Made by a program: the position numbers and the translations under genes. Under the pieces are notes generated by a model that was not told the DNA's origin, did not search any database, and saw only the letters and a program-made list of their open reading frames with translations. Shown piece by piece: positions 16,418-18,052 of a stretch of 53,478 bases of DNA (within the stretch, counting starts at the first letter, position 1; every line of letters starts with the position of its first letter). The DNA comes from Paracoccaceae bacterium (GTDB lineage: Bacteria > Pseudomonadota > Alphaproteobacteria > Rhodobacterales > Rhodobacteraceae), in contig CANNIA010000024.1 in the NCBI GenBank assembly GCA_947504705.1, positions 1 through 53,478 on the forward strand, in the 5' to 3' direction.

Positions 16418-18052
16418 TTACAGGCCAAGCGTCTTGAACACCTTGGGCAATTCCTCGGGCAGGTCTTCGGCAATCAGCCCCGGCCCGAACGAAAGCGCGC
16501 ATTCGACATGCAGCCAGGCCCCGGTGCAGGCCGCGTCAAAGGGGCTGAAGCCACGGGCCAGAAGCCCGGTGATGAAGCCTGCAAGCACGTCGCCCGACCC
16601 TGCGGTGGCAAGCCAAGGGGCGGCCCGGTCGAAGTGGGCGGAGTTGATGGCACAGCGACCGCCGGGGTCGGCGATCACCGTGTCCGGGCCTTTGTAAAGG
16701 ACGGTGCAGCCTGCACGGGCGGCAGCCTCTCGTGTGGCGTCAACCTTGGAATAGGCGGGGCCTTTGGTGGCCGGTTCGGCCAGCTTTGCCGCGATGTCGG
16801 GGAAGAGGCGGGCGAACTCTCCGGCATGGGGGGTGAGGATGCATCGGTCATGGAGGGCGGCGAAGAGGTCGGGGTGTCGGGACAGGATGGTGAGGGCGTC
16901 GGCGTCGAGGACGATGTTGCGGGGGGAAAGCCGGTCTGAAGCCCGGCCTACATCGGCGCCCGTAGGCCGGGCTTCAGACCGGCATTTGAGCGCCACCGCC
17001 ACCAGCTCCCTGCCCCGTGCATCGAGGCCCAACCCCGGCCCGATGCAAACCGCATTGATCCGCGAGTCCGCCAGCGCCTCCTCCAGCATCAGCCCATCCG
17101 CCACCCCCCGCAGCATCACCGCATCCAGCCGCGCGGCGTTCTCGGGGATCGCATCCGGCGGACACCCCACCGTCACCACCCCCGCCCCGATCCGCAAAGC
17201 CCCCCGCGCCGAAAGCCGCGCCGCCCCGCCGCGACCGGATGGGCCGGAGAGGATCAGGGCATGGCCGTGGGAGTATTTGTGGCCCTCCCGCTTGCGAAGT
17301 CGTCCGGGTCCGTTCAACCCGGTTGTCAGAACGTCCTTCAACGTTCGTGGTATCTCGTTAGTGTATTCAAGGACAGAAACTCGACCGCGATTCAGTGTCG
17401 GAAGACCGATGTCGACAACTTTAAGCTTCTCAGATGAATCTAACCCTGCGGCAATCAGATGCCCTACCTTGGCGCGGTGGAATGTAACCGGAAGCTCGCA
17501 ACTCCGTTGCGCATCGCTTTCTCCAGGCTCTTTAATCCATCGGCCTGAATCAGCGTCTATGCCGGAAAGAATGTCTATTGCGACCACAGGCCACTTCTGG
17601 AACGTAGCGCCCAACAAGAGTTTGGCTTCAGCATCGAGTGGCCTTGCAAGGCCAATGCCAAACAGTGCGTCCACCCAAATGTCGACATCTTGATTGCGCA
17701 CTTCAGGGATCATGCTGGCTGGGGTGATCTCCCCCATCCCCCGCCACCGCTCATAATTCACCCGCGCGTCCGGCGGCAGCCTCGAAGGGTCGCCGTAGAG
17801 AAAGACCTCCACCTCCCAGCCCCACTCCTGCAAAAGCCGCGCGACCACGAACCCGTCGCCGCCGTTGTTGCCGGGGCCACACAGGACCACCGCCCGGTGC
17901 GAGGTGGCAGCCAACTCCGGCCATTCCTCGAAGATCGCCTCGACCACGCCCCGCCCGGCGCGTTCCATCAGTTCGAGGCCGGTCACCTCGCCACTGGCAA
18001 TCGCCGCCTGTTCGATGGCCCGCATCTGGGCGGCGGTCAGGAGTTCGGTCAT
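16418..18052 (-). CDS. nnr: Bifunctional NAD(P)H-hydrate epimerase/dehydratase
   Basis: Metabolite-repair enzyme of 544 aa. The N-terminal YjeF-type epimerase (about 1-215; CGPGNNGGDGFVVARLL) interconverts R- and S-NAD(P)HX; the C-terminal ribokinase-like dehydratase (about 240-540) converts S-NAD(P)HX back to NAD(P)H. Motifs are ALILSGPSGRGGAARLSARG, CIGPGLG, NIVLDADAL, LTPHAGEFARLFPD and TAGSGDVLAGFITGLLARG. Two oddities: residues about 357-374 are an extra segment encoded by a palindromic repeat (16931-16982) inserted between the CIGPGLG and DADAL strands, and the stretch about 17310-17715 is much lower in GC than its flanks. The frame stays open throughout, so the protein may still work. 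Confidence 0.92.
   Translation of the reverse strand: MTELLTAAQMRAIEQAAIASGEVTGLELMERAGRGVVEAIFEEWPELAATSHRAVVLCGPGNNGGDGFVVARLLQEWGWEVEVFLYGDPSRLPPDARVNYERWRGMGEITPASMIPEVRNQDVDIWVDALFGIGLARPLDAEAKLLLGATFQKWPVVAIDILSGIDADSGRWIKEPGESDAQRSCELPVTFHRAKVGHLIAAGLDSSEKLKVVDIGLPTLNRGRVSVLEYTNEIPRTLKDVLTTGLNGPGRLRKREGHKYSHGHALILSGPSGRGGAARLSARGALRIGAGVVTVGCPPDAIPENAARLDAVMLRGVADGLMLEEALADSRINAVCIGPGLGLDARGRELVAVALKCRSEARPTGADVGRASDRLSPRNIVLDADALTILSRHPDLFAALHDRCILTPHAGEFARLFPDIAAKLAEPATKGPAYSKVDATREAAARAGCTVLYKGPDTVIADPGGRCAINSAHFDRAAPWLATAGSGDVLAGFITGLLARGFSPFDAACTGAWLHVECALSFGPGLIAEDLPEELPKVFKTLGL
16931..16982. repeat. Palindromic element inserted in frame within nnr
   Basis: Perfect inverted repeat of 21 nt: left arm 16931-16951 (inner 19 nt ggtctgaagcccggcctac) and right arm 16962-16982, with a 10-nt loop atcggcgccc. 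On the nnr strand it encodes RSEARPTGADVGRASDR, residues with no place in the enzyme family. It behaves like a small coding-compatible palindromic repeat element, similar in principle to Rickettsia palindromic elements. Confidence 0.85.
17310..17715. other. Low-GC segment inside nnr
   Basis: Hand counts on 60-nt lines give about 45-48% GC at 17341-17400, 17401-17460 and 17521-17580, against about 65-75% at 17041-17160. The segment encodes the end of the epimerase domain and the interdomain part. Edges are approximate. A horizontally acquired recombinant segment is one explanation. Confidence 0.55.

Follow-up and report, generated by a model that had tools for sequence, protein, structure and literature searches.

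One coding site in nnr, the gene for the bifunctional NAD(P)HX epimerase/dehydratase, has been filled repeatedly by unrelated families of palindromic repeats, so that an element of a known kind appears here in a new and strong setting. The stretch of DNA analyzed (the window, 53,478 nucleotides) is contig C24 of the draft genome G000 (3.72 Mb in 87 contigs), and its nnr gene occupies positions 16418..18052 on the minus strand with an intact frame of 544 aa, carrying the Pfam domains YjeF_N and Carb_kinase and matching NCBIfam TIGR00196 and TIGR00197. The nearest named record for this gene is an uncultured Rhodobacterales bin (90% identical), and several of the best-matching records are Tabrizicola. 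Nearly all readable relatives have a palindrome of one family or another at this spot, which thus resembles a long-lived landing site. Intragenic REPs are known from the literature (PMC3733652), and a search whose reach excluded most subscription journals returned nothing about nnr, Tabrizicola repeats or a hotspot shared by several families.

The palindrome of the window consists of two perfectly pairing 22-nt arms (16930-16951 and 16962-16983) around a 10-nt loop, and a longer version with one mismatch has arms of 25 nt (16927-16951/16962-16986). A previous reading of the letters alone, hereafter the sequence-only reading, was right about the perfect pairing and the loop and gave the arms as 21 nt, one short of the measured length. 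When the arm was searched for at up to 3 mismatches, it occurred twice in the window, both times as the palindrome itself, and never in 100 dinucleotide shuffles. Folding of the 64-nt strand yields -31.9 kcal/mol, whereas shuffles average -11.0 (z -9.15; 0/200 as good), and Rfam gave no match at gathering score anywhere in the window. Pairing and folding define arm 1 (16930..16951, minus strand) as GTAG plus an imperfect hairpin, GTAGGCCGGGCTTCAGACCGGC on the minus strand; arm 2 (16962..16983, plus strand) is the same unit inverted, and between the two GTAG ends lies the 10-nt spacer (16952..16961), which reads GGGCGCCGAT in gene sense.

The insert is visible as extra length between two conserved motifs: CIGPGLG and DADAL lie 141 nt apart in the window and 81-84 nt apart in empty orthologues, an excess of about 19 codons. 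The sequence-only reading had placed some 17 extra residues between these motifs with the frame preserved; the extra residues are there, between CIGPGLG and VLDADAL, in an unbroken gene, and their number was slightly underestimated. Alignments, spacer lengths and a structural model place the roughly 57 nt missing from empty orthologues within codons KCRSEARPTGADVGRASDRLSPRN (16916..16987, minus strand), the precise insert ends being uncertain. In the AlphaFold2 model of the window protein (mean pLDDT 80.4, pTM 0.62), residues 361-373 fall below a pLDDT of 50 and lie between a helix (345-356) and a strand (379-382), and this low-confidence loop at the insert would fit a tolerated loop. The closest solved structure is the Nnr of T. 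maritima, TM0922, with a low overall TM-score of 0.50-0.55 that may reflect domain placement. Most likely, the insert itself is neutral for the Nnr enzyme, as far as can be predicted.

The window palindrome is a tail-to-tail dimer of GTAG-type REPs, a previously known kind of mobile element. In both arms, a short stem-loop (GCCGG...CCGGC) carries the GTAG tetranucleotide on one side, and the GTAG ends of the dimer face inward. A degenerate REP pattern, GTAGGNCGGGSNNNNNNCCGNC, matched 15 times in G000, including both nnr arms, against 3 matches for the reversed control. Exact copies of the arm are confined to nnr in G000; one further place matches at 2 mismatches and five at 3, and by the dimer pattern nnr also has the sole tail-to-tail dimer of this genome. 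Across the 32 genomes of the genus set, tail-to-tail GTAG dimers occupy 41 places, 11 of them in nnr. The remaining 30 were judged by open frames and context, with only the frame in G046 put to Pfam, and several of them sit in long frames that we take to be spurious, the DNA being rich in G+C. Other REP copies seen in context, by eye and by open frames rather than annotation, look mostly intergenic or placed at gene ends. In G046, a GTAG REP dimer lies in frame within a 525-residue frame (L194 ~935-1007; G046:C40) that matches Pfam tRNA-synt_1, a class I tRNA synthetase that by our reading is valS.

These copies bear out part of the sequence-only reading, which had proposed a coding-compatible palindromic repeat: the element is in frame, the arm has related copies at other places in the genome as well as in relatives, the same kind of dimer is found inside an unrelated protein (the synthetase of G046), and orthologues without the insert exist. 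Neither do close orthologues all carry the same residues without inverted-repeat DNA, nor is the arm without relatives elsewhere. The proposal of a new small mobile family resembling those of Rickettsia is not supported, given that the arms form a GTAG-type REP dimer and that intragenic REPs had been described before (PMC3733652). As described there, GTAG REPs form homo- and heterodimers, mostly between genes with some intragenic, and those with the GTAG ends inside are termed tail-to-tail (Di Nocera et al. 2013, PMC3733652); the window element shares with them the GTAG tag, the short hairpin, the inverted dimers and the occurrence of some copies inside genes. The same account treats intragenic GTAG and CGTC REPs together, Rickettsia ones among them, and assigns RPE-4 and RPE-6 of Rickettsia to the CGTC REPs (PMC3733652); the words rhodobacter and roseobacter are absent from its main text. 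A dedicated coding-compatible family like the Rickettsia palindromic elements (RPE), new in Rhodobacterales, would also insert in frame and encode a peptide, and by their description in PMC3733652 the RPEs are likewise palindromic repeats in frame within genes. It is nonetheless a highly improbable account of the nnr insert: the structure agrees with GTAG REPs as described in that paper, RAYTs are present in the genus genomes, and other copies, judged by frame, look mostly intergenic or placed at gene ends.

Two further comparisons concern arrangement and class. The nnr dimer resembles REPINs (Bertels and Rainey 2011, PMC3116915) in being an inverted REP pair that forms a long hairpin, with RAYT genes in the same genomes, but differs from them as described in that source by having its GTAG ends inside (tail-to-tail); the most abundant 16-mers reported there are mainly extragenic, just 14 overlapping genes. 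In outline, the CCCGTCCCGGGCTTGACCCGGGACC inserts found in nnr of other Tabrizicola resemble the CGTC-type REPs of alphaproteobacteria described in PMC3733652, but their membership of that class is unsure because they lack the AT pairs at the stem base, described there as almost invariable.

Among the 32 genomes of the genus set, 26 had a readable nnr site; three were left out for runs of G/C at the site (G004, G011 and G016) and three for lack of coverage of the site (G017, G018 and G046). An inverted-repeat pair of score ≥10 was present at the site in 24 of the 26 readable genes (scores 11 to 30), and in all 26 the frame was open, with no stop between GPG and DADAL. As read from the sequences, the occupants comprise at least three unrelated repeat families in five sequence types. 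GTAG dimers occur with three loops: T1 (CTTCAGA) in six genomes (G000, G012, G023, G010, G014 and G044), T2 (GTTCACC) in three (G003, G008 and G045) and T3 (GCGTGCC/GCCTGCC) in four (G013, G022, G005 and G042). Pairs of CCCGGGCTTGACCCGGG are found in three genomes (G020, G001 and G006, with an additional repeat nested in that of G001) and CCCCTCCCC..GGGGAGGGG pairs in six (G019, G015, G009, G024, G047 and G043), and these two families stand side by side in two more (G007 and G002). A single GTAG hairpin remnant of 8 bp is left in G021, and G041 has about 12 extra codons and no palindrome. The CCCCTCCCC repeat is dispersed, being present in 31 of the 32 genomes. In the drafts G004, G011 and G016 (loci L034, L043 and L047), runs of G/C fill the site, with a broken frame in G004 and G011; sequencing or assembly trouble is the likely cause, real frameshifts being possible. 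Different REPs near one same site were reported previously for recB of X. campestris and X. oryzae (PMC3733652), whereas here, compared with the cases in that source, one nnr site is occupied in 24 of 26 readable genus members, and by several unrelated palindrome families.

Such consistent occupation could also reflect a selected hairpin function, in mRNA or DNA structure within nnr, for which any palindrome would suffice. The persistence of an inverted repeat in 24 of 26 genes despite sequence change is what this would predict, but mismatches between the arms, from one to 6 per pair, occur in 18 of the 24 best pairs, G021 retains a short hairpin only, G041 has none, and most genera sampled in the family do without a palindrome, all of which makes selection for the hairpin quite improbable. 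Outside the genus, the insert is missing from six outgroup genes of other families in the class (L045, L048-L052), whose spacer measures 84 nt. Within Rhodobacteraceae, single GTAG hairpins occupy the site in other genera (L074, L152, L154, L161 and L213), as do the other palindrome families (L076, L080, L088, L105 and L137). The survey of one genome per genus covered 133 genera with a match (G130 not included), that is 132 loci, of which 4 gave no site; in 7 of the 128 rows that remained, too early a start motif was taken (spans of 279-297 nt), and these were read by eye as empty. A recognized palindrome was found at the site in ~10 of the 128 readable genera, our own included, so that the hotspot is largely confined to Tabrizicola and its near kin; in most other genera sampled, the site is short and empty.

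The concentration of palindromes at this spot was quantified across 79 of 80 loci from named records (L110 dropped), the 80 having ranked highest among 571 matches. Inverted repeats of score ≥16 numbered 16 within the site (9,531 bases), none in the rest of nnr (120,132 bases) and 4 outside it (444,897 bases); at a score of ≥14, the same loci gave 18, 1 and 8, respectively. This count and the genus count are not independent, because the loci are rich in Tabrizicola and some appear to come from the same genomes as the genus set (L054 and G013; L055 and G012). A cruder count with called ORFs found 13 palindromes in nnr, of which the 12 with a measured distance lie 7-31 nt before DADAL, and zero wholly within 340,866 bases of other predicted coding sequence.

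Plain survivorship, in which repeats land everywhere and those in frame within permissive loops persist, would require no special attraction at nnr. The in-frame dimer in the tRNA synthetase gene of G046, the in-frame dimers in RAYT genes (below) and the position of the nnr insert in a modeled loop are all in keeping with it. Against it stand the mere 4 strong palindromes in the 445 kb around nnr, the lack of any wholly within the 341 kb of other predicted coding sequence (by the cruder ORF calls), the share of nnr among tail-to-tail GTAG dimer places in the 32 genomes (11/41) and the presence of several unrelated families at one site, which exceeds what chance survival suggests. We regard survivorship as a real but minority possibility.

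The close relative G013 carries a T3 insert and G000 a T1 insert, in different flanking alleles. At the DNA level the two genes are 97-100% identical in codon bins 81-320, but identity drops to 53-72% near the insert and is 75-92% beyond it, so that segments of nnr have different histories. A comparison of 18 orthologues also delimited a hypervariable, AT-richer middle of the gene away from the palindrome (17288..17740, minus strand; ~codons 101-260 or, more narrowly, 105-255), where amino acid identity is 13-52% per 20-codon bin versus 89-97% on either side (bins around the insert left out), third-position identity is mostly 0.32-0.43 versus 0.55-0.81, and G+C content in the window is 53% versus 67-68%. 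Between G000 and G013, in contrast, this middle is 97-100% identical in DNA although the flanks are not, which marks it as an exchanged internal segment and as evidence of recombination in a housekeeping gene. On a tree of 26 rows built from the C-terminal 486 nt of nnr only, insert type changes at least 16 times of a maximum possible 20, the tree being poorly resolved (13/23 inner branches open). Between like arms, the spacers of G010 and G044 are exact reverse complements of each other, as if the element flips or enters either way round. Among the genomes compared, no strain pair differed by the insert alone, and no single insertion event was caught. Just upstream of the insert (codons ~320-360, L024-L046), we also observed two allele classes, GLDARGREL and GTGAREAGL, each with several insert types.

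The different types could instead descend from one ancient insertion inherited genus-wide, with arms that drifted in sequence while quasipalindrome (templated) correction preserved their pairing. Some T1 and T3 inserts do share a similar spacer (GGGCGCCGAT in G000, GGGCGCGGAT.. in G005), and the GTAG inserts of nnr have a common reading frame, as such descent would predict. However, the CCCGGG and CCCCTCCCC inserts show no sequence relationship to the GTAG arms, CCCCTCCCC is a dispersed repeat (31 of 32 genomes), the flanks of T1 and T3 inserts differ, and drift is not expected to arrive at loop types present elsewhere in the genomes. A single ancient insertion is hence an unlikely origin for the variety at the site.

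The explanation that we favor, and consider probable, is that a tolerant loop in nnr became a turnover hotspot in which palindromes replace one another, with recombination in nnr helping. The GTAG REP dimer is a non-autonomous palindromic element thought to be mobilized by RAYT. The loop of the dehydratase domain leading from helix to strand toward DADAL would tolerate extra hydrophilic residues, and in-frame insertions at the site would survive because of this tolerance. A resident palindrome may then draw further hairpin elements to the site or be exchanged for them, whether through processing of single-stranded hairpins by RAYT or through replication slippage, and because of this attraction or exchange, one element could replace or shorten another, or be joined to it. 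Recombination of nnr alleles across species would presumably spread the inserts. Insertion and replacement of REPs are hard to observe and single events are seldom caught; a fixed in-frame site that holds different palindromes from one species to the next offers a natural record of turnover, in clear surroundings and with a reading frame that can be used experimentally.

Candidate mobilizing enzymes are widespread in the genus. A protein of G018 matches the NCBIfam model for REP-associated tyrosine transposases (NF047646, 190 bits), and relatives were found by protein search (E ≤1e-5) in 28 of the 32 genomes. A probe with Pfam PF01797 had yielded no RAYT above the cut-off in G000 or the 32 genus genomes. 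This was a false negative, since relatives occur in 28 of 32 genomes and the sub-threshold match L185 is a RAYT by NCBIfam; the idea that the genus has no RAYT was accordingly rejected, the other sub-threshold match being 98% identical. The RAYT of G000 itself (G000:C41:23511-23984, L327; 69% identity, no stop) is flanked on its 3' side by GTAGGGTGGG-type hairpins that differ from the nnr arm type, so that in this genome the two are linked by kind and not as a cognate pair. For the CCCGGG and CCCCTCCCC families, our data hold no link to a RAYT. The RAYT frames of G014 and G044 contain REPs with a loop identical to that of their own nnr inserts, and loop types in RAYT and nnr agree in 5 of 7 comparable genomes (G014, G044, G003, G008 and G005) and differ in G022 and G013, an agreement that is suggestive only. 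Mobilization of REPs by RAYTs is itself put forward as a hypothesis in PMC3733652.

The RAYT genes also carry inserts of their own. An in-frame head-to-head REP dimer precedes the WQKRFWE motif in 9 of 15 RAYT stretches (L340-L342, L346, L347 and L350-L353); among the others, L354 has a broken frame and L343, L344, L345 and L349 gave no RAYT frame. Both arms have the same loop in 9 of 9 dimers, four loop types occur across species, and the spacer peptide is similar throughout. Conversion of REPs, or exchange between them, finds its strongest support in these arms that differ together at a fixed place. Retention of the spacer peptide while both arms differ together, with arms matching in 9 of 9, would also suit inheritance of one ancient insertion with corrected arms. 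A stronger form of the turnover that we favor, which we advance tentatively and consider rather doubtful, would make the nnr site a true landing pad where the resident hairpin recruits REPs of the type that goes with the current RAYT, or is converted to that type; both arms would then change in concert, and the position and part of the spacer would persist. The same would hold within the subfamily of RAYT genes that have their own in-frame dimer and a similar spacer. RAYT genes with their likely substrate in frame would constitute a second such record, in which a single gene unites transposase and target. In sixteen RAYTs without a dimer, the corresponding place holds 19-20 residues, and a tenth occupied RAYT (G024; L348) has a GTAGGGTG-type pair in the same place.
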